Source of the DNA: Elusimicrobiota bacterium
GTDB taxonomy: Bacteria; Elusimicrobiota; Elusimicrobia; UBA1565; UBA9628
Direction of reading: 5' to 3'
Assembly: GCA_028871595.1 (NCBI GenBank)
Contig: JAGWMT010000001.1
Span: forward strand, 1 to 64,000
DNA: 64,000 bases
The notes under the pieces were generated by a model. It saw only the letters and a program-made list of their open reading frames with translations, had not been told where the DNA came from and searched no databases. Positions 22,889-47,924 of this stretch are shown here, in pieces. Within the stretch, counting starts at the first letter, position 1, and each line of letters starts with the position of its first letter. Position numbers and translations under genes: made by a program.

Positions 22889-23377
22889 CGCTCATGGGCG
22901 CGGCCCTCGATTTGCAGCGCCAAGATCGGCTGGGACCAACCGTTGCGCAAGGTTTCCTGCGCGTACCAAAGCCGTGTTTTTGCGTCGCGGAGTCGCTCGA
23001 GCAGGGCGATGTTCTGGCGCCAGGGCGTCGGGCCAGGCGGCGGCGAAGGCCCGCATGTATTTAAGGTTGCGCGGCGAGAAGCCCTTCATCTCAGGATACG
23101 CCGCGTGAAGGTCATGCGAAAGGCGGTCGATCACCTTCGAGCCCCACCCTTTCTGGTCTTGACGCTCAAGGATGGCTCGTCCGACGTCCCAGTACAAGGC
23201 GACCATGGCGACGTTCGCGGAAAAAACAACCCGCTGCCTTTCTTGCCCGATCCGCTGTTTTAGAGCGGGGAGCATTTCAGCATAGCCGCCCGGCATTTCA
23301 GACGCCGGCAGCGCGACGGGGAAAGACGCCTCGTCTCTCGAACGCCCGCGGACTCTCCGCGGATCCTTAGAAGCCAT
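22889..23377 (-). pseudogene. Truncated DUF1016/YhcG nuclease gene (copy A)
   Basis: Collinear with positions 27816-28336 of the intact DUF1016 gene, with a single 32-nt deletion (489 versus 521 bp). The deleted block is exactly the region containing the 29-nt palindrome in the intact copy, and its loss shifts the frame after AFAAAWPDA. The copy ends abruptly at 22889, so the C-terminal PD-(D/E)XK nuclease half is absent. The adjoining 22774-22888 and 23378-23476 hold no gene I can support; the 50-bp module sequence is also missing here. Confidence 0.85.
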
Positions 23378-23476
23378 GCCACCACTCGCCCGACAAACTC
23401 CACCTCGGGCCATTCTTGGTATGAGGGGCCGCCGTTGGTCTTGCTCACTTGATAGAGAACAAGGCCCTTTTGCGAA

Positions 23477-26500: not shown

Positions 26501-26599
26501 ATGAACGACGAATTCAAATGGGCGTGCTGCTTCTGCGGCAAAGAGATTTTGAAGACCAAGTTCGATCCGGGCTCGCTGTCATACACCCCCGCCTGTTGA
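26501..26599 (+). pseudogene. Truncated Cys-rich zinc-ribbon-like gene
   Basis: 32 codons: MNDEFKWACCFCGKEILKTK followed by FDPGSLSYTPAC and a stop. The start resembles small proteins with a C-x-F-C-G-x-x-I zinc knuckle that occur as orphan immunity genes after toxins; these continue for 50-100 further residues with a second Cys/His pair. Here the frame meets the DUF1016 remnant at about 26597 and stops. It appears cut by the arrival of module 1. Confidence 0.5.
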
Positions 26600-26681
26600 C
26601 GGAACGCGCCGCTCCAGTACGAGCAGACTCGATGATCTCCCGAATCCGGTCATGGAGCGTCGTCGGCTTCTTACCTTTCAT
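26595..26681 (-). pseudogene. N-terminal remnant of a DUF1016 nuclease gene (module 1)
   Basis: From ATG 26681 the leftward frame reads MKGKKPTTLHDRIREIIESA and RTGAARSVN, the standard N-terminal helix of a DUF1016/YhcG protein from a different subfamily than modules 2 and 3. Homology ends near 26595, where the Cys-rich ORF begins on the other strand. Its position relative to the 50-bp repeat (21 bp away) is as in modules 2 and 3. Confidence 0.65.
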
Positions 26682-26701: not shown

Positions 26702-26751
26702 AAACGAAAAGCCCTCCCGAAGGAGGGCCTCGTTCTGTCCACGTCCAAATT
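26702..26751. repeat. Invariant 50-bp intermodule repeat, copy 1
   Basis: Identical base for base to 28351-28400 and 33355-33404. It contains the hairpin GCCCTCC-CGAA-GGAGGGC (26711-26728), whose minus-strand reading is a UUCG-type stem followed by TTTTCG, terminator-like. It separates the leftward DUF1016 remnant from the rightward HTH gene. Confidence 0.9.
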
Positions 26752-26753
26752 GG

Positions 26754-27071
26754 CTGCCCGAGTCGGACGCTCTTCAAAACGGGAAAGGCCTTTTATTCGA
26801 GTTTTTCTTCGGCCAGTTAAATACAGCCAAGGGCGAGAAACGCCTCTTACCGAAAGAAGATTTTGACGAAGCCGCTCGTGAAGCCTTCAATCTTCCCAGG
26901 ATGCGATCTCACAAAGACCGAATCCTCTTCGCCCAAGAGTGCCGGCAGAAACTGCTGGACTTCCCCGCTCTGACGCGCAGAGACATCGCCAAGAAACTTG
27001 GCGTGACAACGAGCCGCCTCAATCAAATCCTGCGCTCAACGCAGAAGAAGAATCCCAGTCACGACCCGTGA
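26754..27071 (+). CDS. Small HTH protein of the DUF1016 module (copy 1), CTG start proposed
   Basis: 105 aa if read from CTG 26754. Conserved core: NGKGLLFEFFFGQLNTAKG, then a C-terminal helix-turn-helix, CRQKLLDFPALTRRDIAKKL followed by GVTTSRLNQIL, similar to ParB/KorB-like or recombinase-associated HTH proteins. No ATG, GTG or TTG occurs before the conserved core in any of the three copies. An apparent longer frame from 26652 crosses the non-coding repeat and is not shared by the other copies. 27072-27250 is empty. Confidence 0.6.
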   Translation: MPESDALQNGKGLLFEFFFGQLNTAKGEKRLLPKEDFDEAAREAFNLPRMRSHKDRILFAQECRQKLLDFPALTRRDIAKKLGVTTSRLNQILRSTQKKNPSHDP

Positions 27072-27250
27072 CGGATTTATCCTGGCCCTCGTTCCCATCA
27101 AATACCCATCAAAGAAAATGGCTGTTTGGATAGCCCGCACATGTCGCGATATTTACAGGTAAATCTGATGCCCGATCACCTCCCTGGCCGCAAGAGGTCT
27201 ATGAAAAGGAGGTTCTCATCAAAGAATAGGGAGTCCGCCCATACTCACTC

Positions 27251-28336
27251 CTACTGAAGCTCTTTTTCCAGCTCTTCAACGGTGGGGAGCACGCCCTTCA
27301 GATCGGCCGGCAGGGACTCCACGAGCTTGGTCTCCCAGTGCGCGACGCCGATCGGCTTCTGGATGCCGCGCAGGGCGTACTCGACCATGAGTTTCTTCTT
27401 CTCTTTGACCAGGAGAAGGCCGATGGTCGGCTTGTCCTCTGGATGACGCAGCAGATCGTCCACGGCCGAGAGATACATGTTGATTTGGCCCACGAACTCT
27501 GGCTTGAAAGGCACGGCCTTGAGCTCGACGACCACGTAGCATCGCAACTTAAGATGGTAGAAGAGCAGGTCCACATAGAAGTCGTCGTCGCCTACTTCCA
27601 GGTGGACCTGACGGCCTACGAAGGCGAAACCCGTTCCCAGTTCCAGCAGGAACTTCTGAATGTGATCCACCAGCGACTGCTCGACCTCCCGTTCGCGGCG
27701 AGTATCGGCCGTCCCGAGAAAATCGAAAAGGTATGGGTCCTTGAAGACCTGGGCGGCCATGTCGGACTGAGCCGGCGGGAGAATTTCCTTGAAATTACTC
27801 AGCGCCTTCCCTCGCCGCTCATGGGCGCGCCCCTCGATCTGCAGCGCCAAGATCGGCTGCGACCAGCCGTTGCGCAAGGTTTCCTGCGCGTACCAAAGCC
27901 GTGTTTTTACGTCACGGAGGCGCTCGAGAAGGGCGATGTTCTGGCGCCAGGGCAATCGTGCAACGACCCGTTGCACGATTGTGGCGTCAGGCCAGGCGGC
28001 GGCGAAGGCCCGCATGTATTTGAGGTTCCGCGGCGAGAATCCCTTCATCTCGGGATACGCCTCGTGAAGGTCGTGCGAAAGGCGGTCGATCACCTTTGAG
28101 CCCCACCCTTTCCGGTCTTGACGCTCAAGGATGGCGCGTCCGATGTCCCAGTACAAGGCGACCATGGCGACGTTTGCGGAAAAAACAACCCGTTGCCTTT
28201 CTTGGCCGATCCGCCGTTTTAGAGCGGAGAGCATTTCAGCGTAGCCGCCCGGCATTTCCGACGCCGGCAACGCGGCAGGGAAAGACGCCTCGTCTCGCGT
28301 GCGTCCTCGGGCTTTCCTGACGTCCTTAGAAGCCAT
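27251..28336 (-). CDS. DUF1016/YhcG PD-(D/E)XK nuclease-like protein (module 2)
   Basis: 361 aa, normal length. N-terminal YhcG_N domain: VVFSANVAMVALYWDIGRAI, MKGFSPRNLKYMRAFAAAWP, RLPWRQNIALLERL. C-terminal nuclease domain with FVGRQVHLEVGDDDFYVDLL and CYVVVELKA, giving the D-x(n)-E-x-K active-site pattern. The family is believed to be DNA nucleases tied to mobile or defence loci, but no substrate is known. A TAGGAT hexamer is 5 nt before the ATG, placed between it and the 50-bp repeat. A 29-nt perfect palindrome lies within the coding region. Confidence 0.85.
   Translation of the reverse strand: MASKDVRKARGRTRDEASFPAALPASEMPGGYAEMLSALKRRIGQERQRVVFSANVAMVALYWDIGRAILERQDRKGWGSKVIDRLSHDLHEAYPEMKGFSPRNLKYMRAFAAAWPDATIVQRVVARLPWRQNIALLERLRDVKTRLWYAQETLRNGWSQPILALQIEGRAHERRGKALSNFKEILPPAQSDMAAQVFKDPYLFDFLGTADTRREREVEQSLVDHIQKFLLELGTGFAFVGRQVHLEVGDDDFYVDLLFYHLKLRCYVVVELKAVPFKPEFVGQINMYLSAVDDLLRHPEDKPTIGLLLVKEKKKLMVEYALRGIQKPIGVAHWETKLVESLPADLKGVLPTVEELEKELQ
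27953..27981. repeat. Perfect 29-nt palindrome inside the module 2 nuclease gene
   Basis: Arms CAATCGTGCAACG and CGTTGCACGATTG (13 bp each) flank a 3-nt centre (ACC). It encodes the conserved IVQRVVARL segment. The 32-bp block carrying it is absent from copy A at 22889-23377. Confidence 0.9.
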
Positions 28337-28350
28337 GCCGCATCCTACAA

Positions 28351-28400
28351 AAACGAAAAGCCCTCCCGAAGGAGGGCCTCGTTCTGTCCACGTCCAAATT
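28351..28400. repeat. Invariant 50-bp intermodule repeat, copy 2
   Basis: Same 50 bases as copies 1 and 3, with the hairpin at 28360-28377. It fills the gap between the DUF1016 start (28336) and the proposed CTG start of the HTH gene (28401). Confidence 0.9.
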
Positions 28401-28709
28401 CTGCCCGAACCGGACGCTCCTCAAAACGAGAAGGGCCTTTTATTCGAGTTTTCATTCGGCCAACTAAACACGACAAAGGGCCAGAAGCGCCTATTGCCTC
28501 AGGAGGCATTCACCGAGGCCGCCCGTGAAAAATTCGCTCGCCCCAAGACTCGTTCTCTCAAGGATCAAATCCTCCTCGCCCGAGAGTGCCGACAGAAGCT
28601 GTTGGATTTCCCCGCTTTGACTCGCAAGGACGCCGCCAAGCAACTAGGGATGACAACGGCCCGTCTCAATCAGATTTTACGCCTGCTGCGGCTAACGCCA
28701 AATTTTTAG
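28401..28709 (+). CDS. Small HTH protein of the DUF1016 module (copy 2), CTG start proposed
   Basis: 102 aa from CTG. Core NEKGLLFEFSFGQLNTTKGQ and C-terminal HTH DFPALTRKDAAKQLGMTTAR then LNQILRLLRL. Compared with copies 1 and 3 the non-coding sequence just before the CTG is 2 nt shorter, so any upstream reading frame differs between copies while the protein from the CTG on aligns without gaps for about 45 residues. Partner of the leftward nuclease gene. Confidence 0.6.
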   Translation: MPEPDAPQNEKGLLFEFSFGQLNTTKGQKRLLPQEAFTEAAREKFARPKTRSLKDQILLARECRQKLLDFPALTRKDAAKQLGMTTARLNQILRLLRLTPNF

Positions 28710-28741
28710 GGTCACTCCGGAGCAAGTTCGCGCGTCAAATT

Positions 28742-28770
28742 CTGCGGAACTAGGACTCGAACCTGGAAAG
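28742..28770. other. tRNA 3'-end-like footprint (candidate attachment site)
   Basis: On the minus strand this reads as a T-arm (AGGTTCGAGTCC) and acceptor 3' strand ending TTCCGCAG. It matches 25 of 29 positions of the tRNA-Gln 3' end at 60547-60575, in the same orientation, but no tRNA body is attached. The stop codon of the ATP-grasp gene lies inside it. Candidate far-end duplicate of an element integrated at tRNA-Gln, or a relic of another tRNA. Confidence 0.6.
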
Positions 28771-30159
28771 GAGCGTCCCGGCAGTGGCGGAGCCTTCGAC
28801 GAGGCCGGATGTCGTGCCGAAGACCGTGTTCGAGAACGCACGTCCCCAGTTGATCGAGCCCGATCCGGGGCTGGCGGCGTGCCGGGCCAGCATCCCGCCC
28901 GCATGGGATCCGAAGTGATGCGGCCCAAACACAACCGGGACTCGACGCACGATGACGCGACATGGATCCGGGATGAAGAACGGCATCGGCACGAGATCCG
29001 ACGGGACGTACTTCTGAGCGATGAAATTCGACTCCGCTGCTCCCCGCCTGACGAGTTCCGACCATGACGCCTGGTCCACTCCATTTCCGAAAACGATCCC
29101 CTTGCCGCCGTAGCCCGCCAACGGCTTCAGCAACAGCTGTCGTCGGTGCTTCAGGAGGAACGGAACGGTGTCGATCTCGCGCCCGCGAAACGAAGCCTTC
29201 CCGTCTCTCACCAGACACGTCCACGGCACATGCGCAGCGACGAACTCCCGCGCGTGCGGTTCAAGCAACCCGGGCTCCTGATGCAGCCATGCGAGGACGA
29301 TCTTGTTGGTGTACAGAGAGCAGCGGTCGTCGGTCACGATGATCGTCGCGCCGGCACGAGCGGCACGGGCATAAGGCTCCAGATCGATGCCCGCCTCCAA
29401 CCACTTGGGCGTCAGAAAGATGCGCACCGCGACGTCGAAACTCCGGCCGCCAGCGCTCAATCCGCCGTTCTTCAAGCGCACGTCCTCAGGTCGCACGTAG
29501 TACGCCTGCATGCCGCGCTCCCGGAGATGCTCCACCTCGACGACGATCTCCCGGATCGAGCTCTGCCCTTTTTCCCAACCGATGAGGGCGATCCGAGGCG
29601 CGCGCCGCAGCCTCAGACCGCCGACGACTTCCAGCAGTTGTCGCCGCCGAGCTTCCATGGAGTCGTGAAAAACGAAGCCGAATCCGGAGGCCTGCAAGCG
29701 CCTCGCCGCCGCCGAGCCGGCGTATATCCCGTTGAGCAGCCCGGTCGGAACGACCCCTCCGACGGCGCTGTGGAAATTGCATTCGATGAACCACGGCACG
29801 CCGCCCGACAGAATGGCGTCAGGACGGACGTTCGACGCCGACAATCGGCTCGTCGTCGGCGACATGATGCGGAGGTGATCCTGCGGATGACGGGTCAAGG
29901 CGGCCAGGCGGGCCGCGTCCCCGCCCGATTTCCGCTCACACGCGTCGACGATGATCTTCGCCAGCGTCCGGGCGCTTCGCCGCAGCGCTTCATATTCATC
30001 GAGATCGAGCAGGAGCGGACGCAACGGGACCGGCGTTTCCGCCCCGATGGAGACGATGCCGGCCATCGCCCGCGCGATGCGGCCCGCCAAGCGGCGCTGC
30101 TCGTCGACGGCTCGCGCGCGGACGACATCCCGGTTCCAGAGCCGCCCTACCGCGTTCAC
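28750..30159 (-). CDS. ATP-grasp-like ligase (circularly permuted type), paralogue 1
   Basis: 469 aa. N-terminal helical part, then VRPDAILSGGVPWFIECNFH and SAVGGVV (acidic/Asn metal-binding-like), TDDRCSLYTNKIVLAWLHQE, and the glycine-rich ATP loop LLKPLAGYGGKGIVFG near residue 350, followed by NFIAQKYV. This order resembles circularly permuted ATP-grasp enzymes related to glutathionylspermidine synthase, which form amide or peptide bonds. The last residues SATAGTLLSRFES exceed the paralogue and run into the tRNA-like footprint, so the C-terminus is a junction product. Starts in a 4-bp overlap with paralogue 2. Confidence 0.6.
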   Translation of the reverse strand: MNAVGRLWNRDVVRARAVDEQRRLAGRIARAMAGIVSIGAETPVPLRPLLLDLDEYEALRRSARTLAKIIVDACERKSGGDAARLAALTRHPQDHLRIMSPTTSRLSASNVRPDAILSGGVPWFIECNFHSAVGGVVPTGLLNGIYAGSAAARRLQASGFGFVFHDSMEARRRQLLEVVGGLRLRRAPRIALIGWEKGQSSIREIVVEVEHLRERGMQAYYVRPEDVRLKNGGLSAGGRSFDVAVRIFLTPKWLEAGIDLEPYARAARAGATIIVTDDRCSLYTNKIVLAWLHQEPGLLEPHAREFVAAHVPWTCLVRDGKASFRGREIDTVPFLLKHRRQLLLKPLAGYGGKGIVFGNGVDQASWSELVRRGAAESNFIAQKYVPSDLVPMPFFIPDPCRVIVRRVPVVFGPHHFGSHAGGMLARHAASPGSGSINWGRAFSNTVFGTTSGLVEGSATAGTLLSRFES

Positions 30160-31538
30160 TGCGCCCGCCCCCCCGCCATCACGACGCTGGCCGCCGCGCC
30201 CATCGCCCGATTCACGACGCGGCGATCAGGATCGATCGGGAACCGCGCGAAGCAGCCACCGTCATGACGCCCGAAGACGAAAGGCCCGAGCACGACCGGG
30301 ACCTTGACCACCTGGATGGCGCCGTCCACGAGGAAAGGCATCGCAGCGAGATCGGGGGCGACATAGCGTTGCGCGATGAAGCCGCCTTTTTTCACGGCGT
30401 CCGCGATGTGCCGAGTCCATCGCGACTCTGGGCAATCGCGACCGATCACGACTCCGCTGCCGCCGGATCCCCGCAAGGGCTTCAGCACGAACTCTCGACG
30501 CCGCCGGAGCAGATACGAAGGCAGATCGACTCTCTTGCCCCCCGCTCGTTCGAGAGGGCCGCCTCGGACCACGAACGTCCACGGGATATGTCGCCGGATG
30601 AACTCGCGGTCCGGCTTCCTCATCGAAGCCGCGTCCTCATGCAGCCAAGCGAACACGATCTTATTGGTGTACAGCGAGCAGAGGTCGTCGGTCAACACCA
30701 TCGTCCCATCGGCGCGCTCCGTAGCGCGGAACAACTCCATGCTCACTCCCGCGCGGGCGTATTCGCGCGTCAGGAAAATGCGCAACGCGATGTCGAAACG
30801 CCGACTCCCCGCAGCGAGCCTGCCCCCCCGAATCTTGAGCTCCTGAGGCTGAATGAACATGGTCGGGACGCCGTTCTGCGAGAGATATTCGGCTTCCTCG
30901 GTGAAGAGACGGACCGACGACGGCGGCGGGACGTCGCCTTCCCATCCGATGAGAGCGACCCGAGGCGGTCGCCTCAGGCCCATATCCCGCGCGACGTCGA
31001 GCAGCAGAAGACGACGCGCCTCCAACGAGCTACGCGCGTGGATCCCGACGCCGTCCCGCATGAGTCGGACTGCCGTCGGGGAGCGAAGGAAGAACTTGCC
31101 GACGATGCTGGAGCTCACGACGCCGCCAATGACGCTGTGCAGGTTGCATTCCAAGAAGTACGGCCTTCCGCGACTGTAGACGATGTCGGGCCGGACCATC
31201 GATGCCGCTTATTTGTTCCACGTCGGCCGGTCGGACAGCAGAGCGAGCTGCTCCCGCGGGTAGCCCATCATCTCGACCAGGCGAGTATGATCCCCGGCCG
31301 ACCGCTCGAAGCAAGTCCGCTGGATCAGGCGGACCAGATGCCGAGTGATGGCGTGGAGGCGGGCCAATTCGCTCGCGCCGATGAAGATCGGCCTCAACGG
31401 CACAGGCTGCTCGGGCGCGACGAAGCTTAATCCGCGCATCCCTCGTCGGATCTCGCGCGCGAACCGTGCCTGCTCCTCGAGAACCGCGCCGCCTCTTCGA
31501 AGGAGTGCGGCGTTCCAACGAGCGCCAAGACTATTCAC
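30156..31538 (-). pseudogene. ATP-grasp-like ligase, paralogue 2, interrupted by a TAA
   Basis: The frame 31538 to 30156 aligns end to end with paralogue 1 but carries one in-frame TAA at 31209-31211, after SDRPTWNK and just before VRPDIVYSRGRPYFLECNLH. The downstream part could restart at ATG 31199 (347 aa) and keeps all later motifs (VLTDDLCSLYTNKIVFAWLH, FVLKPLRGSGGSGVVIG). Either a fresh nonsense mutation, a split gene giving two polypeptides, or a sequencing error. Overlaps paralogue 1 by 4 bp; divergent from the MFS gene. Confidence 0.7.
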
Positions 31539-31607
31539 CGCTGACCCCGTACCCCGATGATGAAATGCGCTATTATCATATCAACATACTGAGGCTGCTG
31601 GAGGACT

Positions 31608-32321
31608 GTGAAGGCGCTTAGGAGCTTATTCTTCGTTTTCGGAGGGCAATGCGTCACGTTGCTCGGCTCCGAGACGTCCAAGTTCGCCCTATCGCTTTGG
31701 GCATGGCAGAGCACGGGCAAGGCGACCACGCTCTCCATATCACTTTTTTTCGCCTATATGCCCGGGATCATCCTCGGCCCTATAGCCGGCGCGCTGGCCG
31801 ATCGCTTCGACCGCAAGAGACTTTTGATCTTATGCGAGGCGGCCGGAGCCCTGATCAGCTGCGCCCTGCTGGTCCTGATAACGACCAAGGGTCTGATGAT
31901 ATGGCATATCTACCTGGTCACGGCGCTGTACTCGACAATCCAGGCGTTCAAGGTCCCGACGCTCGCGGCGTCAGTGCCCGCCATGGTTTCGCGCAATCAC
32001 TACATCCGGGCGAATTCCATCCATAAATTTGCCGAATCGAGCGCGACCTTCATGGGTCCCATGCTCGGCGCTCTGCTGCTGCAGATGATAGGGCTGCGAT
32101 GGATCGTCATCGTGGACGTCATCTCGTTCGTCATCGCGGGACTGGCGATCGCGGCGGCCGATCTCAGATCGCATTCCCCACGCGCTGCGTGGGGAATGCA
32201 ATTATCGGCGCCTATCTCGTACGCGTTGTACTATTGGCCCGCTTTCAATTCTGCCTCGATAGCCCTAATCGTCGGCAGTGTCCCTTTGAGCTTCTCTGGC
32301 AGGGCCTTAGTCAACTTATAA
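31608..32321 (+). pseudogene. MFS transporter, truncated at the module 3 boundary
   Basis: GTG start at 31608 with GGAGG just upstream. The N-terminal six helices of an EntS-like major facilitator are recognisable: LLGSETSKFALSLWAWQSTG, the loop motif GALADRFDRKRLLIL near 60-75, and SFVIAGLAIAAADLRS near 185. Members are about 400 aa; here the native sequence ends near 32170, where a 29-nt palindrome starts, and the frame then runs into antisense of the module 3 nuclease until 32321. It probably exported the product of the ATP-grasp pair. Confidence 0.75.
32171..32199. repeat. Perfect 29-nt palindrome at the MFS/module 3 junction
   Basis: Arms GCATTCCCCACGC and GCGTGGGGAATGC (13 bp each) flank GCT. 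Same length and arm/centre geometry as the palindrome at 27953-27981 but different arm sequence; both share an ACG...CGT core. It lies 31 bp beyond the stop of the nuclease gene. Confidence 0.9.
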
Positions 32322-33334
32322 GCAGACACGCCGATAGGCTTGTGCGTGTCTCTAAGAGCGTACTCGGCGATCAGCTTCTTTCGGGACTTACAGAGGATCA
32401 TGCCGATGGAAGGCTGATCGTCTTTATGCCGAAGACGGTCATCCACGGCTGAGAGATAGAAATTCATCTTCCCCGCATACTCCGGTTTGAAGGGGCCATT
32501 CTTCAACTCGACGACGACGTAGCAGCGCAAACGCAGATGGTAGAAGAGAAGGTCGATATAGAAATCGTCGCCTTCAACTTCCAAGTGGACCTGACGCCCG
32601 ACGAAAGCGAACCCGACGCCCAACTCGAGCAGAAATCGCTGGATATGGTCCACCAATCCCTGCTCCAGCTCGCGTTCACGCGCGTCGACGGCCAGCGTCA
32701 AGAAGTCGAACGTGTACGGGTCCTTGATGGCTTGATGGGCCAGGTCCGACTGTGCGGGCGGTAGCGTCCTCTTGAAATTAGTGACGGCCTTCCCCTGGCG
32801 ATCGAAAAGGCCCGACTCGATCTGATGGACCAAAGAAGGAAGGCTCCACCCGTTTTCTACGGTCATCTTGGCGTACCAAAGACGCCGACCAGGGTCTTTG
32901 AGCTTTTGAAGGAGCGCTATGTTCTGGCCCCACGGAATTTCTGACACGACCCGTGGCAGATTTTGGCCGTCCAATTCTGACACGGACCGTGTCAGAATTG
33001 CGGGCCGGGATCCTCCCGGCGATTGCGCGAGAACCTCCTCGGTCCAAGCCAAATAGAAAGCGCGCATCCGCCAGACGTTTCGCGGAGAAAAGCCTTCCAT
33101 CCCAGGGAAGTCGCGCTGAAGGTCGGCGGCCAGCTTGTCCACGACGGCCTTGCCCCAGCTCTCCCGCCGCTGGCGCTCGACGATACACTTGCCGAGGTCC
33201 CAGTACAGGGCAATCAACTCACGGCTAGCAGCGAGAGCAGCCTTGACCTGAGCCGAACGGATACGGGACTTGATGTCCTCAAGGAACTGGGGATAGCCGG
33301 TCGGCATTAAGGCCGCTGGCTCCTTATCTTTCAT
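32231..33334 (-). CDS. DUF1016/YhcG PD-(D/E)XK nuclease-like protein (module 3)
   Basis: 367 aa, intact. YhcG_N part: AALAASRELIALYWDLGKCI, MEGFSPRNVWRMRAFYLAWT, EIPWGQNIALLQKL. Nuclease part: FVGRQVHLEVEGDDFYIDLL and CYVVVELKNGPFKPEYAGKM. It is clearly diverged from module 2, especially in the N-terminus (MKDKEPAALMPTGYPQFLED). An insertion SRPAILTRSVSELDGQ before the conserved NLPRVVSEI segment is encoded by a palindromic repeat. A TAGTCT hexamer is 9 nt before the ATG. Confidence 0.85.
   Translation of the reverse strand: MKDKEPAALMPTGYPQFLEDIKSRIRSAQVKAALAASRELIALYWDLGKCIVERQRRESWGKAVVDKLAADLQRDFPGMEGFSPRNVWRMRAFYLAWTEEVLAQSPGGSRPAILTRSVSELDGQNLPRVVSEIPWGQNIALLQKLKDPGRRLWYAKMTVENGWSLPSLVHQIESGLFDRQGKAVTNFKRTLPPAQSDLAHQAIKDPYTFDFLTLAVDARERELEQGLVDHIQRFLLELGVGFAFVGRQVHLEVEGDDFYIDLLFYHLRLRCYVVVELKNGPFKPEYAGKMNFYLSAVDDRLRHKDDQPSIGMILCKSRKKLIAEYALRDTHKPIGVSAYKLTKALPEKLKGTLPTIRAIEAELKAGQ
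32936..33000. repeat. Two tandem palindromes inside the module 3 nuclease gene
   Basis: 32972-33000 is a perfect 29-nt palindrome with 14-bp arms (CAATTCTGACACGG and its complement) around a single base. 32936-32964 is a related imperfect version at the position homologous to the module 2 palindrome. The perfect one encodes the extra ILTRSVSEL, the imperfect one the conserved NLPRVVSEI, as if the unit had been duplicated in frame. Confidence 0.85.
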
Positions 33335-33354
33335 GCTGGCTGTAGACTACAAAA

Positions 33355-33404
33355 AAACGAAAAGCCCTCCCGAAGGAGGGCCTCGTTCTGTCCACGTCCA
33401 AATT
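33355..33404. repeat. Invariant 50-bp intermodule repeat, copy 3
   Basis: Same 50 bases as the other two copies, hairpin at 33364-33381. It lies between the module 3 nuclease start (33334) and the HTH gene. Confidence 0.9.
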
Positions 33405-33406
33405 GG

Positions 33407-33715
33407 CTGCCCGAATCCGACGCTCTTCAAAACGGGAAAGGCCTTTTATTCGAGTTTTCCTTCGGCCTCCTCAACACTACGAAGGGCGGGAAGCGAATAC
33501 TCCCGCAGGAGGCCTTTGCGGCGGCCTCGCGTGTTTCTATTCGGGGTACAAAAGTTCGTTCCGGCGAAGATCGCCTACGGTTGGCTCGACGATGCGCGCA
33601 GCTACTCCGAGAGACACCCGCGTTGACTCGCAAGTCCCTCGCCGGGCAATTGGGCATCACCACGGCGAGACTCAACCAAATCCTGGGCCTACTGCACGGC
33701 GGAAAAGGTCGCTAA
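33407..33715 (+). CDS. Small HTH protein of the DUF1016 module (copy 3), CTG start proposed
   Basis: 102 aa from CTG 33407, open to the TAA at 33713-33715. Core NGKGLLFEFSFGLLNTTKGG and HTH ETPALTRKSLAGQLGITTAR then LNQILGLL. The middle is the most diverged of the three copies, but there is no frameshift, implying selection at the protein level. 33716-33890 has no supported gene. Confidence 0.55.
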   Translation: MPESDALQNGKGLLFEFSFGLLNTTKGGKRILPQEAFAAASRVSIRGTKVRSGEDRLRLARRCAQLLRETPALTRKSLAGQLGITTARLNQILGLLHGGKGR

Positions 33716-34691: not shown

Positions 34692-35582
34692 TCACCAGCG
34701 CGAGGAGAGCGTGAAGCGGTGGGTGGAACCCAACTCGCCCATGGGCACGGCCGCGTAGTCGAGCCCCCAGGCTCCGCCGCGAAATCCCAAGCCCATCGTC
34801 AACCCGCGCGCGGCGTCGAAGTTGGAGCCGCCCGTGATCGCCGTCTGCGTCGTGTAGCCCGCGCGCAGGAACACGCCTTTGATCGCCTGATACTCGCCGC
34901 CGAAGCCCGCGTCGTTGCCCGCGCCGCGCGGGCCGTTGGTCCACTCGGCCGCCAGCGCGTGGCCGCCCGAGAGCTTGTAGGCCGCGCCGAAGGCGAGTCT
35001 CAGCGGCAGGTCGTTGCGCTGGACGTCGTATTTCATCCCCGGCCCCGCGTTGCGCAAGGCCGCGCCAAGCGTCAGGACGCCCAGCGTCTTGCGCGCGCCG
35101 AGATCGAGCGCGACGGTCACGGCCTGGGCTGAACCGATGTGCGATTGGATGTACTTCGCCGTCGCGCCGAAGTCCGCCAAGTCGGTCTTGCGGCCGTAGC
35201 CCAGGCTCAGCGCCGCGTCCGAAGCCTGAAAGCCCCCGGTCGGATGGCCCTGTGCGTCGCGGCCCTCCAACGCGGACTGACTCAAATAAGTCGCTCCGGC
35301 CGCGAAGGTGCCGAGTTGGGTCGGCTGGGCGTAGCCCAGGAAGTCGTGACGGACGGTCTGGGTCAATTCCGCATGGCTGGCGGCGGCGTCGCGCTTATCG
35401 AGCGCGGCCAAGCCCGCCGGATTCCAGTACAACGCGCTCGCGTCGTCGGCCAGCGCGGTGCCGGCGCCGCCGACGCCGAGATAGCGCGCCCCGACGCCGA
35501 CGTTCAGGAACGACACGGTCTCGGCCGCCCCGGCGACCTGGGCCAGCAAGGCGAGCGTGACGGCGAGCTTGATCGTTCTCAT
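34692..35582 (-). CDS. PorV/PorQ-like outer-membrane beta-barrel protein
   Basis: 296 aa with signal peptide (MRTIKLAVTLALLAQVAGAA). The start of the mature protein, SFLNVGVGARYLGVGGAGTA then LADDASALYWNPAGLA, is the hallmark of the UPF0164/PorV-PorQ group: FadL-like barrels that in type IX secretion bind and shuttle cargo. The end GELGSTHRFTLSSRW is a typical barrel C-terminus. The ATG overlaps the stop of the giant protein by 4 bp, so cargo and PorV-like partner are co-translated. Confidence 0.85.
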   Translation of the reverse strand: MRTIKLAVTLALLAQVAGAAETVSFLNVGVGARYLGVGGAGTALADDASALYWNPAGLAALDKRDAAASHAELTQTVRHDFLGYAQPTQLGTFAAGATYLSQSALEGRDAQGHPTGGFQASDAALSLGYGRKTDLADFGATAKYIQSHIGSAQAVTVALDLGARKTLGVLTLGAALRNAGPGMKYDVQRNDLPLRLAFGAAYKLSGGHALAAEWTNGPRGAGNDAGFGGEYQAIKGVFLRAGYTTQTAITGGSNFDAARGLTMGLGFRGGAWGLDYAAVPMGELGSTHRFTLSSRW

Positions 35583-38500
35583 TTGACGACCGCGATGCGC
35601 CCCGCCTTATGGATGTCGGACTGTCCGGACTTCTTCGCGGTGAGAACGTACTGATACACGCCCGAGCCCACGCCCGAGATATCCCAGACGTTGTCGTAGG
35701 TGTACTGCACGCCCTTCCCGTTGCCGTCGTCGAGGCCCGCGTTGAGCGAGAAATTCGAGGACGAATAGACCCTGCGCCCGGCGAGGTCGTAGACATGCAC
35801 CTCGACCGAGTCCGCCAGACCGGGCTGTATGCGGATCGTGGCCGCATTCACCCCGCGCACGGGGTTCGGGAAGGCGTAAGCGTCGTGGAACATGAAGGTC
35901 GGGTCACCGACCGCGAGCGGGCGCAGTCCAACGACCGAGGCCGTGCCTGAGAATACCTGGTACAGAGAGAAGTGCGTGGTCTTGGCCTTGACCGTGTGGG
36001 TCTTGGGATCGACGACCGAGTCCAAGTTCTCCCACTGCGCCTTGTCGCGATTCCAGTAGCGCACGGTGAGGTTCGCCTCGTCCACGCCCTCCAGCGCCAC
36101 CAGGTCCGAGCTGTAGGGCAAGGTCAACGTGACGGGTGCCGCGAACTTCGTGCCCTCGGGGCCGTACTCTACGGGCGGCGAGGCGGTCTTGAGCTGGGCC
36201 GCGTCCACCGCGCGACGGCGGTTCGACTCGTCGGCCGCGCCCTCGGTCGGCGTCGAGACCGTGACCTTCATATCTTGAGCCACGGCCCCGGGCGGGATAT
36301 TCACCGAGGCGAGGTCCTTGCGCTCGACCTTGCCGCCGTCCTCCTTGTCCACAACGTCGCGAGCCACGTGCTCGTCCTCGGGCCTGGGCGCCGGCACGAC
36401 CAGCGGCGGCTGGCCCGTGGGCAGGGCGAACTTGCGGACGCGGTCGTTGTTGCGGTCGGCCACGAACAGATTGCCCTGAGCGTCCAGGGCCAGACCCATG
36501 GGCTTGTTGAAGACGATCGCGCCGCTCGGCGCGGGAGCGTCGTCGTCGTGGACCTTGCCCTTGGCGCCGAAGTTGAGGTTCTGGCTTCCCAGGAAGTCGA
36601 ACTTAAGTATCCGGGAATATTTGCGGTCCGAGACCAGCAGGCAGTCGCCGCTGGTGCTGACAGCCACGCCGAAGGGCCGGCCCCAGGTTCCGGGCTTGTC
36701 CCCCGTGATCGGGATGGTCAGCAGAAGCTGCCCGGTCGCGGCGAACTTGAGCGCTCGCCCGCCCTTGGAGTCGGCAACGTAGATGTTCCCTGCCGCGTCG
36801 AGCGCGACGGCGAACGGCTTGCCCAGCGCCGCGACGGCCGAGTCGTCGTCATGATCGTCCTCGTCACGGTCGGGGCGGACCGGCACGGGCGGCAGATCGA
36901 ACTGGAGCGTGAACCCGCCCGTCGAGCTGAACACCTGGACGCGGCGGTTGTCCGTGTCGGCGACGAAGATGTTTTGGCTGGCGTCCACGGCCACGCCCGC
37001 CGGGTGATGGAACCGGCCGGGCAGGCGGCAGTCGTGACCCTCGGACTTGTCGTCATGCCAGTCTTCCTGGTCATGCTCGCGTCCACCCAGGCTCAACAAG
37101 ATTTGTCCTGTGGCCGAGAGCTTGAGCACGCGGTCGCGGTTGGTGTCGGCAACGTAGACGTTCCCCGCCGTGTCCACCGCCACGCCCGCGGGCTCGTCCA
37201 AGCGCAAAGTCCCCGTGGAGAGATGGTCGTCGTCATGACCGCGGACGCCGAAGGACGCCAGCAAGGCGCCGGTCGAGGAGAACACGGCGACGCGGTCATT
37301 ATCGCGGTCGGCGACATAAATCTTCCCATCGCCGCCCGCCGCCACGCCCTCGGGCATATCGAAGACCTCATGGTTGCCCAACGTCAGCAACTCGCCCGGG
37401 TCGCCCACGAAGACATTGATCGCGACCGAGGCGGTGTTGGCGACCAAGTCCGTCGCGGTGAGGCGCAAAGTGAGCCAGCCCGACATCGCCGAGGCGTCCC
37501 AGGTCCCGAGCGCGCCGGAGTTCACGGCGGCCGTTCCCGAACTGATGAACATGAAGCCCGCGGCCGCGTTCTGGCCCAGCGCGTAGTCCAGGACGTAATT
37601 GCCGAAGTGGTTGTCGCGCGCCGTACCCAGCACCGGGAACTTGCCCTTGAGCACGCGGCAGATGCCCGAGTCGCACGTCGCGGGCGAGAGCAGGGTGACC
37701 TCGGGCGGCGTCGAGTCGAGCAGGACCGCGCTCGACTTCACGACTTCCGCGTTGAGCACGTTGTCACGCGAGTAGAACTCAACGACCTTGCTCACGTCCG
37801 CGCCGGACAGGGAGAACAGCGCGGTGGAGAGCGCGAAGGGCGCGGTGCTCGGGACGACGTCCGAGATGCGGTAGTAGGTGTCCTTGACGCCCGAGGCGAC
37901 GCTGTTCGTCACGGGATCGACGACCGCGACCCCGAACGGCGTGCGCGAGCTGACCAGAAGAACGTTCGGCAGTTGGAACTGCGGCGCGCCGATGACGAGC
38001 GCGCTGACGGGCGGCGTCGCGTCGGACTGGATCGAGATCGAATGCGCGCTCTCGACGTTGCCCACGTTGTCCACGGCGCGGTAGAGGATCACGTGGCGGC
38101 CTTCGGCGAGCCTGAGCGCGGCGGCGTAAGGCGCGAACGGCGCGCCGTCGAGCGAGGTCTCGATGTGGTTGAGTCCCGAACCCGACTGTCCGGTTGGGAG
38201 GTTGGGGTCGGCGGCGGCGAACGTGACCGGCGTGGCCGTGGCGACGTAGATCGTGCCGTCGGCGGCCGTAAAGGTCGGCAAGCCGACCGATACGGTCGTG
38301 GCGGGCGGGGTCGCGTCTATCCAAACATTGGTGCTGCGCAGGACTTCCAGGTTGGCCACGTTGTCCTGGCTTTGATAGCCGAGCTTGTGCGCGCCCTCGG
38401 CGAGGGCCAAGCTGGAAATATACGTCGTGAAGGCCCCGTTGTTGTCTTGCCAGCGCGTGAAGGCGACGCCCGAGGCCACGCCGTTGACCGCGGGGTCGGT

Positions 38501-41500
38501 CGAGACGAGGACCAGGCGCGTGTCCGCGGAGGCGTAGAAGGTGACCGCATCGGGACCGGCGAACTGACGCCCGCCGGACACGAGCAAGCTGGTCTGCGGC
38601 GGCGTGGCGTCGACCAAAGCCGTCGTGCTGCGCAAGACCTCCAGGTTCGAGACGTTGTCCTGGCTTTGATAGGCCAGATGATGGACGCCTTCGGCGAGCG
38701 TGAGCGCGGAGTTGAACGGCTGGAACGCTCCGCCGTTGTCCTGCCAGCGCGTGAACGCCACGCCCGAGGCCACGTTCTTGGCGACGGGATCAACGGCCGT
38801 CAGCGAATAGCGGGTATCGGCCGAGGCGAAGAAGCTGGCCGCGTCCGGGCCCTGGAACTGGTGGCCGCCCAGCACGGCCAAGGCCGTGAGCGGCGGCGTG
38901 GCGTCGGACTGGATATTCAGCGTCCGCGCCGCCTCCACGTTGGCCACGTTGTCGATGGATCGGTAAAGGATCGTGTGACGGCCTTCGGCGAACGTCAGCG
39001 AGGCCGTGTAGACCGCGAACGGCGCGCCGTCCACGGCGACCTCGATGCGGTTGACGCCCGCTCCGGGCTGCCCCGTAGGCAGGACCGGGTCCGCCGCCGC
39101 GAACGTCAAGGGAGTGGCCGGCGTGATGTAATTCGTCCCATCCGGCGCCTGGTAGTACGGCGCGCCGAAGGCGAAGGAACTCACCGGCGGCGCGGCGTCC
39201 ACCCAGACGTTGGTGCTGCGCAGAACTTCCATGTTCTGCACCTTGTCCTGGCTCCGGTAGCCCAGCGCATGCGCGCCTTCCGCAAGCCCGAACGGCGCGG
39301 CGAAGGTCTGGAAGGCCCCGCCATTGTCCTGGTACTGCGTGAAGGCCAAGCCCGACGCGGCGCCTCCCGCGATCGGATCGACCGCCGGCAGGGCCAACCG
39401 TGTGTCTCCGGAGGCGTAGAACGTCATCGCGTCGGATCCCGGGAACTGATGCCCGCCGATGACGGTCAGTCCGGTCTGGGGCGGCGTGTTATCAAGGAAC
39501 ACGGTCGTGGCCTTGGCGAGTTCCTGGTTACCCACGTTATCGACGGCGTACCAGGCGACCGTCTTGAAGCCGTCGGGCAACGGCAACGTGAACGAGCTTG
39601 CGTACGCGGCGAAGGGATCGGCGTTGCGGCGGAAGAAGACCGAGCTGACGCCCGAGGCGACTTCCTGGACTACGGGATCGACGGCCGACAGCGACAACTG
39701 CGTCTGCACGGAGATGAACACCGCCTGCCCGCTGCCGGGATCAAACTTCGGCCCGCCGATCGCAAGGGCGGTGACGGGCGGCGTGGCGTCGACGTACACT
39801 GTCGCGGATTTCGGCAGTTCCTGGTTGCCCACGTTGTCCTGGCTCTGGAAATCCACGCGGCGGATGCCCTCGGCAAGGCTGAAACTGGCGACGAACGGCT
39901 GGAAAGCCGAGCCCGCGCGATAGCGCGTGAAGGCCAATCCCGAAGCCACGCCGCTCACGACGGGGTCGGTCGCCGGCAGCGAATAAGTGAACTGCACGGG
40001 CGCGTAGCTGCGCGGGCCTTCGGGCGCCATCACCGTGAACAAGGTCCCGCTGGGCTGGATGGCCGTGACCGGCGGAGTGTTGTCGGACTGGAGTAGCAAA
40101 GTGTGGGCGGCCTCCACGTTGCCCACACGGTCGACGGCTCGGAAGAGAACGGTGTGGCGCCCCTCGGCGAAGGTCAAAGTCGACGTGTAGGCCGTGTAGG
40201 CCGCGTAGCCCGCGCCGTCGATATTCGTCTCGATGTGGTCGACGCCGGAAGCCAGACCGTTGGCCGCGGGATCGAAAGCCGAGAGCGTGACGGGCGTCGC
40301 CGGGGTGATGTAGTTCGTTCCGTCGGCCGCGATAAAGAGAGGCGAGCCGATCGCGGCCGTGCTGACCGGCGGCGTGGCGTCGATGAGGACCGTCGTGCTG
40401 CGCAGGACCTCCGCGTTGCCCACGTTGTCCTGGCTCTGGTAGGCAAGCAGATGCGAACCCTCGGTGAGCGCGACAGGCACGGTGAAGGTCTGGAACGCGC
40501 CGCCGTTGTCCTGGTAGCGGGTGAAGGCGATGCCCGAGGCGACGTTATTGACGACGGGATCGACGGCCGGCAGGCCGAAGCGGCTGTCGGCCGAAGCGTA
40601 AAAGCTATTGGCGGCGGCAGACGCGGCCTGTTTGCCGCCGATGACGGCGAGCGCGGTCATCGGAGACGTGTTGTCGGAGCGGATGTTGAGCGTCTGCGCC
40701 GCCTCGACGTTCCCGACGTTGTCGATGGACCTGAACAGGATCGTGTGACGGCCTTCGGCGAACGTCAGCGCCGCGGAATAGGCCGCGAAGGCACCGCCGT
40801 CGATCGACGCCTCGATGCGGTTGACCCCGGAGCCCGGCGTCGTCGTGCCCGCCAGCGCCGGGTCGGCGGCCGTGAAGGTGATCGGGGTGGCCGCCGTGAT
40901 GTAGTCGGTGCCGTCCGCCGCGACGAAGAGCGGCGTCCCGATGTGCGCCGTCGTGACCGGCGGCGCTGCGTCGACCAGCACCGTCGTGCTGCGCAGCACC
41001 TCGAGGTTCGCCACCCGGTCCTGGCTCTGGTAGCCCAGCGCGTGCGCGCCCTCGGGAAGACCGAACGGCGCGGTGAAGGTCTGAAAAGCGCCGCCGTTGT
41101 CCTGATACTGCGTGAAGGCGATGCCCGAGGCCGCGCCGTTGACGACGGGGTCGACGGCCGGCAGGGCGAGGCGCGTATCCGACGAGGCGTAGAACGCGGC
41201 GGCGTTCGGCCCCGGGAATTGCCGGCCGCCGACGACGAGCAAGGACGTGAGCGGCGGCGTCGCGTCGAGTGCCACGGTCGAGATCTTCGGCGTCTCGGCG
41301 TTGCCCACGTTGTCGACCGAGAACCAGCCCACGGTCCGCAAGCCGTCGCCGGGCGTCAGCGTGAAGCTCGCGCCGTAGAGCGAGTAGGCGCCCGCGTCCA
41401 CGCGCGCCGATACCGCGCTCACGCCTGAGGCCACCCCCTGAACGACCGGGTCCTGCGCGGATAGCACGAACGTCGCGGCCGGGCCCACGAACAGCGTCCC

Positions 41501-44500
41501 GGCGGGCGAGGCGTACTGCGGCTGGCCGATGGTCAGCGCCGTCGCCGGCGGCGTGGCGTCCACGTAAACCGTCGCGGACTTCAGCAACTCCAAGTTGCCG
41601 ACGTTGTCCTGGCTTTGGAAGGCGACCTGGCGCACGCCCTCGACGAGGCCGAACGTCGAGACGTACGTCTGGAATGCGCCGCCGTCCAGCGCGTAGCGCG
41701 TGAGGGCGAGGCCTGAGGCGACGCTGTTCGAGGCGGGGTCGTTCGCGGTCAGGGTGTAGAAGAAACCCGCCGAAGCGTAGTCCCGGGAGTTCGCGGTGAA
41801 GAATGCTCCGCTGGGCGAGAGCGCCGTCATCGGCCGCGTGGCGTCGGACCGCAGGCTCAACGTCCGGGCGGGTGCGACGTTGCCGACCCTATCGACCGCG
41901 CGGTAAAAGATGGCGTGCCGGCCCTCGGCGAAGGTCAGCGCGGACGCGTAGGCCGCGTAAGAACCGCCGTCCACGGCCACCTCAATGCGGTCCACGCCGG
42001 AGCCCGCGTCCGCGGCGGTGAACGTCACCGGCGTCGCCGGGGTAACGTACAGGGTGCCGTCGGAAGCCGTGTAGGACGGAGCGCCGACGTGGGCGGCAGC
42101 GACCGGCGGCGTCTGGTCGAGTTGGAACGTCACCGACCGGACGGACTCCGTATTGCCCAGGTTGTCGGCGCTCAGATACGCGATGACGTGAGGGCCGTCC
42201 GCGCCGACGAGGCCGAAAGGCGCCGTGTAGGCGGCGAAAGCGCCGCCGTCGAGACTGTAGCGCGTCGCGGCCGCGCCCGAGGCGACGCCCCCGACCGCAG
42301 GATCGACGGCCGACAGGGAGAAGAGGGTCGCCGCGGAGACGAAGCCGCCGGAGTTCGGCGTCGAGACGGTCAGCGTCGTGACGGGCGCCGTCGCGTCCAC
42401 GCTGACCGCGAGAGAATGCGCGGGTTCGACATTCCCCGTTTGATCCACCGCGCGGTAGAGGACCGAGTGCCGCCCCGCGGCGAAAGTCAGCGGCGCGGAG
42501 TACGCGCCGTACGCCGCGCTATCGACCGACACCTCGACGCGCGCGACACCCGACCCCGCGTGTCCGCCGGGCAAAGCCGGATCGGAGGCCGTGATGCTCA
42601 CCAAAGTCGCCGTCCCGATGTAGAGCGTCCCGTCCGCAGCCGTGTAGGAGGGCGCGCCGACGCCGGCCGCGCTGTTCGGCGCCGTCGCGTCCACGAAGAT
42701 GACCGTCGAGCGCAGGACCTCCAAGTTCTGCACGTTGTCCTGGCTTTGATACGCCACGACGTGCGCGCCCTCGCTGAGGGCGATGCTCGTCCCGTAGACC
42801 TGGAACGCTCCGCCGTTATCCTGCCAGCGGGTGAGCGCGACGCCCGAAGCGGCGCCGGGCGCGCCGGGATCGAGCGTGGTCAGCGCCAAGCGCGCGTCCG
42901 CGGACACATAGACCCCATCGGGGCCGGAGAACTGCCGTCCTCCGGCGATCAGGAGCGACGTGACGGGCGCCGTCGCGTCCACGTAGACCGTGGCCGACTT
43001 CGCCGGCTCCAGGTTGCCGACATTGTCCTGGCTCTGGAAGGCGACCTGCCGCACGCCTTCGGCGAGGCTGAACGTCGAGGCGTAGGTTTGGAAGGCCCCG
43101 CCGTCCAGCGCGTAGCGCGTGGACGCGAGGCCCGAGGCGACGCTGTTGGAGACCGGGTCCGCCGCCGAGAGGGCGTAGAAGAAGCTCGCGGGAGCGTAGT
43201 TTCGGGCGCCGGCGGAAAAAAAGGCGCCGCTGGGCGTGAAGGCCGTGGCAGGCGGCGTGCCGTCGGACCTGAGCGTCAGCGCGCGCAAGGGCTCGACGTT
43301 GCCGACGTTGTCCACGGCTTGGTACAGGATCGAGTGCAGGCCCTCGGCGAAGTTCAGCGGCGCAGTCACGGTCGTATAGGGTCCGCCGTCCACCGAGACC
43401 AGGACGCGCGCCACCCCCGAGCCGGGAACTCCTGGGGCGAGGGGCGGATCGGCGGCCGTGAAGGACACCGGCGTCGTCACAGCGACATAGATCGCCCCCG
43501 ACGCCGTGAAGGACGACGCGCCGATCGACACGACGGTGACCGGCGGCGTCGCGTCCAGGAGGGCGGTCGTGCTGTGCACGACTTCCGCGTTCGACAAATT
43601 GTCCACGCTGTGATAAGAGATCGTCTTGGCTCCCTCGGGGCCGGCCAAAGTGAACGGCCCGGCATAAGCCGCGGCCGGAGCCGTGCCGAGGGAGACGAAG
43701 GTCCCGGCCACGCCCGAGGCGACGCCGGAGACGAGCGGATCGACGGCCGACAGCGAGAACACGGCGCTCGATGAGACGTATCCGGCGTACAGCGGGGTCG
43801 AGATCGCCAGCGAAGTCGCAGGCGGCGCGTCGTCGACGGCGACGGTCGACGAGCGCACGGCCTCGGCGTTCCCGACCAGGTCCACGCTGTAATACCGGAT
43901 CAGGTGGGAGCCCGCGCCGGAGATCGCGAACGAAGACGAGAAGGCGAGGAACGCGCCCCCGTCGATCGCGTAGTAGCTCCGCGCGACGCCGCCGCCCGCC
44001 CCGTCGCCCACCGTCAGCGCGTCGTCCACGGCGCTGAGCCCGAACGGCGTGGCGGAGGTCACGAGAAGCGGCGACGCTCCGTAGGCGGGCCGGCCGACGA
44101 GCAAAGTCGTGCGGGGCGGCAGGAGGTCGTTGGGACGGATCGTGAAGCTGCTGACACGCAGGGTCTCGACGTTGCCCACGTTGTCGACGCTTTGATAGGT
44201 GAGAGCGTGCGCGCCGGTCGAGAGGGCGAACGCGGCCAGGAACGCCCCCGGCGCCCCGCCGTCCACGCTGTAGAGCGTCCGCCCGACACCCGAGGCGACC
44301 CCGTGCGAGACCGGGTCCTGCGCCGCGAAGCTGAAGACGGCGCCCGGGCTCACGTAAACGACGCCTCCGCTCACGGTCTGGGTGCCTTGGATCACGAGCT
44401 GGGTCGAAGGAGGAGTGCCGTCCGTTTTCAGCGTCGCCGTCTTCGGATTCTCGATGTTGCCCACCCAGTCGCCGCTCTGGAACGTCAGCGAATGAGCCCC

Positions 44501-47689: not shown

Positions 47690-47924
47690 GTTTGTTCAAC
47701 TCGGATCGCTTTGACATGGCCATTTGATCACGTCAGGCTACCCCCGGCGCCGCGAGGTTTCAAGACCCCCCATCCGAGGCGAGGCGCGTTGTCGTCGAGA
47801 AAATAGGCCTCGTTTTGAACGGCCTTAACCTTTTCTTAACCGCGGAGGCCCTGGCGCGAAGGGGTGCCGAGCGCGGGACAATGCGGCCTCGCCCTTGATT
47901 ATCCAGGAGTCCTCCCATACACTC
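47690..47924. promoter_or_regulatory. Divergent intergenic region between the two surface-protein operons
   Basis: 235 bp between the giant gene (leftward) and the Kelch/FN3 gene (rightward). It contains an AT-richer stretch (TTGAACGGCCTTAACC near 47815), plausible promoter material for either direction, but no confident -35/-10 pair could be fixed. Confidence 0.4.

Follow-up and report, generated by a model that had tools for sequence, protein, structure and literature searches.

Here, we describe a 64,000-nucleotide stretch of DNA (the window) from an Elusimicrobiota bacterium (assembly GCA_028871595.1, contig JAGWMT010000001.1, positions 1 to 64,000), in which the same 50 bases, referred to below as the 50-mer, occur three times, each time between the start of a leftward gene of the DUF1016/YhcG nuclease family and a rightward helix-turn-helix (HTH) reading frame. 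Judging from sequence, we consider it very probable that the three copies mark left attachment junctions (attL) of serine-integrase elements stacked at a tRNA-Gln gene, that the attachment site of the elements themselves (attP) lies inside the integrase reading frame, and that the HTH frames are severed C-terminal domains of such integrases. Among the observations behind this reading, the 50-mer resembles the trailer of an uninserted tRNA-Gln gene, and the start of the HTH and the 3' end of the integrase share a core sequence with inverted arms. The link of the repeat to a tRNA gene and an integrase 27 kb away was absent from an earlier note on this DNA.

The repeat itself is as that note had described it. 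The copies at 26702-26751, 28351-28400 and 33355-33404 are identical without a mismatch, and their 48-base core has no further copy in the window on either strand. The claim that the HTHs have diverged beside this unchanged sequence also held, as the change in conservation at the edge of the 50-mer is abrupt and the adjoining HTH segments 2 and 3 share 66-77% nucleotide identity with segment 1. The reading frame through copy 2 is unlike that through copies 1 and 3, so the HTH coding sequence does not include the 50-mer as a conserved portion. The description of the nuclease genes was accurate for copies 2 and 3, whose DUF1016 neighbours are full length (Pfam YhcG_C, E 1.3e-64 and 6.7e-66), whereas copy 1 adjoins a remnant (26594-26681, minus strand) of some 29 codons like a DUF1016 start, after which the frame breaks (by eye). 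Calling the nuclease N-termini unrelated was an overstatement, since MKGKKP.. resembles MKDKEP.. and the identity between proteins 2 and 3 is 54-55%.

On sequence grounds, we identify the three 50-mers, read on the minus strand, as the 3' trailer and intrinsic terminator of tRNA-Gln, forming the left, chromosomal half of the attachment site, because the uninserted tRNA-Gln of a relative (L070) carries the aligned sequence directly downstream of its 3' end, with 47 of 51 aligned columns identical. Homologous trailers follow the tRNA-Gln genes of L047 and L048. Two further relatives, L030 and L031, represent the same locus as the window: to the right of the tRNA they match it at 68-71% over 1.4-2 kb, and on the left 2.1-5.9 kb of L030 matches 14.8-18.1 kb of the window in two blocks. 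In both, tRNA-Gln is followed by AATTTAGAC.. and then by a GCCCTCC/GGAGGGC hairpin with a T run. In the window, the 3' end of the integrase stands where the trailer of the target gene, tRNA-Gln(CTG) at 60544-60617 on the minus strand, would be.

A tRNA-Gln match was obtained in 177 of 340 Elusimicrobiota genomes, and the 30 best-matching loci were fetched with flanks of up to about 1.5 kb per side. By eye, the exact GCCCTCC/GGAGGGC arms are present in the trailers of six of the 30 (L041, L047, L048, L050, L053, L055), the arms of the L070 trailer are a variant of them, and an integrase 3' end replaces the trailer in five (L042, L044, L051, L057, L065). The remaining loci have other trailers, or their sequence ends early. 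At these 30 loci, tblastn searches gave no match to HTH copy 2 or to the DUF1016 proteins of copies 2 and 3.

These results bear directly on the alternative offered by the earlier note, in which selection maintains the 50-mer as a bidirectional regulatory element or as an RNA that couples an HTH regulator to a DUF1016 nuclease in toxin-antitoxin style. Three identical copies beside HTH and DUF1016 genes speak for it, as does a strong hairpin, which folds more stably than shuffled sequences on both strands (z -3.0 to -3.9); an Rfam search of the 50-mer returned two matches only, both sub-threshold. The homologue after the uninserted tRNA-Gln of L070 largely refutes it, and the unmatched DUF1016 and HTH queries at the 30 tRNA-Gln loci, the occurrence of the HTH block with other left flanks, the missing start codon of copy 3 and the fit of the HTH profile to the C-terminus of fused integrases all count against it. 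In L026, a change in the hairpin keeps the pairing (as G-U) only in the leftward RNA, that of the tRNA strand (by eye), and therefore agrees with a tRNA terminator. We regard the regulatory element as very improbable.

Two specific candidates were also rejected. A DUF1016-HTH regulatory or toxin-antitoxin module was set aside as the HTH is incomplete in copy 3 and DUF1016 is present in two of the 15 relative loci searched (L026, L035). An integron-type attC site had been suggested by the hairpin and was dropped because the attC consensus was not visible by eye. An exact 38-base pattern had no matches in viral_contigs.

A large serine integrase of 531 aa (58963-60558, plus strand), with Resolvase (PF00239, 4.6e-38), Recombinase (PF07508) and zinc-ribbon (PF13408) domains, lies at one end of an element. 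Its C-terminus, ..VSFDERLNWLRD, ends with AATTGGCTGCGGGAC, and its last codons and TAG stop codon come from the antisense strand of tRNA-Gln. The core AATTGGCTGC is found both at the third 50-mer (33401-33410) and at the host gene (60541-60550), and so is common to attL 3 and the right junction, attR (60524-60550). The core recurs at attL 1 (26748-26757) and, as AATTCTGC, at attL 2 (28397-28404), all on the plus strand. Crossover is predicted at the TG dinucleotides 26755-26756, 28402-28403, 33408-33409 and 60548-60549, for attL 1 to 3 and attR respectively.

Just before the tRNA, the left attP arm GTTTTGACGAGCGTC (60524-60538) is the inverted counterpart, at 14 of 15 bp, of the right arm GACGCTCTTCAAAAC (33419-33433) just inside the HTH, and no comparable pair (14/15 bp, 20 bp apart) was found within the window. 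Joining the two element halves gives a predicted attP of 50 bp, near-palindromic, with 15-bp arms and a 20-bp middle centered on the TG of CTGC. Its size and pseudo-symmetry agree with the attP of the A118/LI integrase, whose dimer is expected to contact 50 bp of pseudo-palindromic attP (PMC3783163). A crossover at TG, to the right of the GG that encodes the tRNA CCA end, also predicts that attR has this GG and that attL 2, like the tRNA-Gln genes of L030, L031 and L070, does not, as is seen. The features of a large-serine-integrase element found here are thus its domains, a shared core with a near-palindromic attP of about 50 bp, and the uninserted site in a relative (L070).

The core reads CTGC at tRNA-Gln and CTCC at tRNA-Asn, at both ends of the element (L033 and L074 in genome G006; L035), so that, in the sequences compared, it follows the target tRNA. 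Ordinary homologous recombination or gene conversion of tandem repeats, without a site-specific recombinase, could also leave identical 50-mers with diverged flanks; a core that varies with the target tRNA, an integrase sitting at the tRNA end, and the recurrence in L026 of the outermost unit, bounded on either side at the att core or close to it (see below), make this explanation highly unlikely. As a separate observation, perfect palindromes lie just left of the att core in several relatives, CTGTTGGCGCCAACAG at about 18797-18814 of L026 and 5765-5785 of L032 and ACTGTTTCCGGAAACAGT at about 10008-10031 of L030; they are possible operators.

The same arrangement of integrase and tRNA is found in other genomes of the phylum. 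Searching the 340 genomes with the integrase (E <= 1e-100, one locus per genome) yielded 20 loci, and ARAGORN placed a tRNA at the integrase end in 15 of them (11 Gln, 2 Asn, 2 His). In 17 loci the integrase frame runs through att to a stop outside the element; for 15 of these this is based on ARAGORN, and for two (L075, L076) an antisense T-arm was recognized by eye at the integrase end, without an ARAGORN call. The stop in L080 lies 4 nt beyond the tRNA. Of the rest, two (L087, L090) have a member of the HTH family downstream of the integrase and one (L088) has its integrase at a contig edge. The HTH model found no match in the fetched flanks of the other 18 loci.

Database homologues of the integrase numbered 7878, of which 120 were listed. 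Among these 120, the close homologues are alike up to ..SFDERLNW and divergent after it, and many of their tails resemble antisense tRNA (by eye). Several integrases among P0059-P0089 have C-terminal tails such as WDSNPQPTGYKCP or LDSNQNYRLQRAMCYRYTTRE, which resemble antisense tRNA readings. In the AcaML1 phage (L110), a serine recombinase is annotated as a large and a small subunit with overlapping genes, possibly another split arrangement.

The HTH segments occupy 26754-27071, 28401-28709 and 33407-33715 on the plus strand, and their conserved block begins where the 50-mer ends. The assumption that they are ordinary genes fails for segment 3, where neither the 33 codons preceding the conserved block nor its first 58 codons include an in-frame ATG, GTG or TTG. 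Matches of the three segments to HTH families in Pfam are all below cutoff. A profile built from them identified 34 proteins among 175 candidates, few of them named; the names are 'hypothetical protein' and, in one case, 'phage antirepressor YoqD-like', and one protein comes from an Elusimicrobia bacterium. An alignment of 26 of the 34 with copy 2 showed strong conservation of the block (W)LPESDA.QNGKGLLFEF in the proteins that have it; the sequence upstream of it varies by protein, and some proteins begin inside it. A motif search of 15 fetched relative regions found eight HTH copies that start at TGGCT(G/C)C and have different DNA on the left.

Patterns for the HTH selected 178 stretches in genome_contigs, where six loci were confirmed (five titled Elusimicrobia or Elusimicrobiota, one 'bacterium'), and 52 in viral_contigs, where none was. 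At E <= 1e-10 the profile matched 11 of the 340 genomes, six of which are among the 20 with the integrase (p 7e-6). For 11 pairs of HTH segments, the ratio of non-synonymous to synonymous substitution rates (dN/dS) lies between 0.13 and 0.41; in some of the pairs dS is close to 1 or exceeds it, so that these are near saturation. By this measure the segments evolve under constraint, even though orphan copy 3 has no start of its own.

In our view, the orphan 'HTH gene' most likely represents the C-terminal domain of the integrase, severed by insertion. When joined at the core, the integrase and HTH frames of the window are in register. The orphan-HTH model matches seven of the 120 listed integrase homologues, which are the seven longest (673-749 aa), at E <= 4.6e-6, and the other 113 score E >= 0.34. 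Of these seven, P0082 and P0105 have a Pfam HTH_ParB match above cutoff, four have one that falls short of it, and P0101 has none. The fused P0110 and P0136 (ending ..KEWLRD) are both associated with a longest contig of 364,949 bases, a possible hint of a tandem junction. The HTH extends in frame a tail like that of a serine recombinase in L029 and directly follows a serine recombinase with three Pfam domains in L027, an arrangement that points to an attachment site.

There is some chance, which we judge to be modest, that integrase and HTH are instead two neighboring genes with attP between them, the HTH being a separate factor, such as a directionality factor or regulator, that starts at attP. 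In L027, L087 and L090 the HTH does lie downstream of the integrase in another frame or open reading frame. The shared phase in the window, the in-frame arrangement in L029 (a recombinase-like tail without a Pfam match) and the fusions in seven of the 120 listed homologues argue against two genes.

Several results weigh against a severed integrase domain. None of the 22 closest integrase homologues (P0037-P0058, 71-93% identity, some partial) carries the HTH fusion, and the fusion proposed for the window's own integrase is suggested by the matching phase. The extension in L029 and the tail at 16773-17324 of L026 have no Pfam match and are recombinase-like by resemblance. The HTH overlaps the integrase in another frame in L090; the L087 integrase bears another tail, of 627 aa, with the HTH following some 240 nt further on; and the integrase of L027 is a different one (about 22% identity to that of the window) whose frame does not match that of the HTH. 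At the threshold used, no integrase was found in five of the 11 genomes with the HTH. Matches of the fused integrase P0110 in the 340 genomes end at residue 536 or before, short of the HTH. The fused integrase P0105 gave seven stretches in viral_contigs, none confirmed, no match among plasmids at E 1e-60, and eight phage records at <60% identity covering at most 54% of the query and not reaching the HTH part. With that part of P0105 as query, only P0105 and P0082 were recovered at E <= 1e-8 among 830 candidates.

We propose the following mechanism for the severed integrase domain. Insertion would take place at the 3' end of tRNA-Gln, by an element with a large serine integrase or by a non-autonomous unit that shares its site, each 50-mer marking one attL. 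With attP inside its reading frame, the integrase on the circular form would read on into the HTH domain, giving a protein of about 630 aa. Integration would cut this frame, leaving an integrase of 531 aa that terminates within antisense tRNA and, at the far end, a start-less HTH. The 50-mers would be identical because they derive from the same host tRNA-Gln flank, and the HTHs would differ because each was brought by a different element.

If so, integration may act as a built-in switch on the integrase, an idea that we consider evenly balanced between true and false: the circular form would carry the C-terminal ParB-like HTH, the integrated form would carry an antisense-tRNA tail with the HTH parked start-less, and activity or direction would not be the same in the two forms. 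A newcomer inserting in tandem may then hand its HTH to the resident integrase through an integrase|HTH junction, so that a stack at one tRNA could regain a full-length enzyme.

Between the outermost trailer (26751) and tRNA-Gln (60544), three units can be delimited, each headed by an HTH; outward from the tRNA they are unit 3, unit 2 and unit 1. Unit 3 (33409-60548, 27.1 kb) contains HTH 3, surface-protein and PorV-like genes, a response regulator and the integrase. Unit 2 (28403-33408, 5.0 kb) contains HTH 2, a tRNA fragment, a weak-ATP-grasp gene and its neighbor, an MFS gene, DUF1016 and a trailer. Unit 1 (26756-28402, 1.65 kb) consists of HTH 1, DUF1016 and a trailer. L026 (14865-16439) has a similar unit 1, matching in two blocks (87% and 91% identity). 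The DNA beyond it differs to the left and to the right, and its ends fall at the core or close to it, so unit 1 appears to have moved as a unit. The recurrence of 26743-28415 in this relative, in other flanks, together with the differing flanks of the copies, also makes an assembly duplication, which the earlier note had named as a refuting case, unlikely.

The right ends of units 1 and 2 consist of a leftward DUF1016 gene (27251-28336 and 32231-33334, minus strand, both PADLOC PDC-S02) and a trailer, with no integrase. This goes beyond simple integration and is a further point against our scheme; recombination between attL sites or deletion of the integrase are guesses at its origin. Behind HTH 2, a 28-nt fragment (28742-28769, minus strand) is 89% identical to tRNA-Gln and is preceded by AAATT; it is perhaps another old junction.

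The DUF1016 genes are cargo. DUF1016 was found near the integrase in two (G002, L115; G183, L076) of 27 integrase and tRNA regions searched, and also in L035. L030 has SoFic and PDC-S62 matches (PADLOC) between HTH and tRNA-Gln, the integrase region of G006 has AbiE genes (PADLOC), and homologues of the giant surface protein and PorV-like genes of unit 3 lie between HTH and integrase in G181 (L036/L114). The proposal of a constant site with variable genes stands in part, the site being half of a serine-integrase attachment site with DUF1016 genes as cargo, and gives way in that whole elements appear to be exchanged. A hotspot at which nuclease genes alone are swapped beside a fixed site would account for the different DUF1016 genes adjoining the same 50-mer, and it has very little probability in our view, given that the relatives also carry Fic-like, AbiE and surface-protein genes and that the exchange resembles that of whole elements at a tRNA gene.

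Some further features of the window were recorded. A DUF1016 fragment at 22889-23413 (minus strand) has 93-94% nucleotide identity to copy 2 and lacks the 50-mer, its homology stopping at about the trailer start. At 28750-31538 (minus strand), two adjoining leftward gene regions resemble each other over 83 nt (82%); a weak match to circularly permuted ATP-grasp, below cutoff, is seen in the first, and the second is apparently split over two open reading frames. The surface-type proteins encoded at 35579-47689 (minus strand) and 47895-52424 (plus strand) have 4036 and 1509 aa (NHL, Kelch, fn3, weak CHU_C) and lie beside the PorV-like genes.

Among known systems, SCC and SCCmec elements and their composites use serine recombinases, stack in tandem at the end of one chromosomal gene and include members without a recombinase. 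The elements described here share these properties; they differ in that the SCC target is a protein gene. SCC elements are not known to have attP inside the reading frame of the recombinase.

The nearest counterpart is provided by the ssrA islands of Dehalococcoides. Among the open-licence PMC papers listed, covered by titles and the starts of abstracts, no bacterial serine integrase with a frame spanning attP and an HTH beyond it came up, and the study of these islands (PMC3146451) was the closest; the available parts of PMC10865867 and PMC10083194 hold nothing bearing on an integrase split. In those islands (PMC3146451), the serine integrase DsiB lies at the 3' end of a small-RNA gene, the islands are tandem with att repeats between them, and 15 of 31 are without an integration module. 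The 3' end of dsiB always overlaps the att site and its stop codon comes from outside the island, as in 17 of our 20 loci (two by eye). According to a suggestion by the authors, full function of DsiB might be limited to the circular form or to positions next to an island that supplies the requisite 3' fragment (PMC3146451). Unlike those islands, which target tmRNA (ssrA), ours are found at tRNA-Gln, -Asn or -His in the 15 of 20 loci called by ARAGORN, belong to the phylum Elusimicrobiota and offer a candidate for the missing 3' fragment, the HTH domain at the far end.

Two other systems place attP inside a gene. In SSV-type 'suicidal' tyrosine integrases, attP lies inside the integrase gene, which is split on integration, and a review calls them exclusively archaeal (PMC8371274). 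They share the position of attP with the present case, which differs in being a bacterial serine recombinase that keeps its three Pfam domains when integrated and would lose the C-terminal domain alone. In mycobacteriophage BPs, attP is inside the repressor gene, and integration shortens the repressor C-terminus and removes a degradation tag (PMC4557955). Here too, attP within a gene would lead to a shorter C-terminus on integration; the integrase would lose a predicted HTH domain, rather than a repressor its tag. With regard to such a C-terminal switch, the frames here are in phase and seven of the 120 listed homologues are natural fusions, and none of the 22 closest is. The Elusimicrobiota elements resemble both the SSV split integrases and the BPs switch and are a member of neither.

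An odd repeat has thus become a mapped mobile-element system with a predicted attP, attB and crossover dinucleotide and a target rule, that the core follows the tRNA. Database entries for short 'HTH proteins' whose N-termini are unrelated, and for integrases whose tails read as antisense tRNA, may be products of att junctions. With candidate defence genes aboard (PDC-S02 here; Fic-like and PDC-S62 in L030), the tRNA locus may act as a defence hotspot of the phylum. The HTH domain is a candidate for the integrase '3' gene fragment' left open by the Dehalococcoides study (PMC3146451), and the system offers a bacterial serine case of the split integrase that the review called exclusive to archaea (PMC8371274). 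If true, the proposed switch would be a bacterial serine-recombinase counterpart of the integrases split in archaea and could answer the question raised by DsiB.

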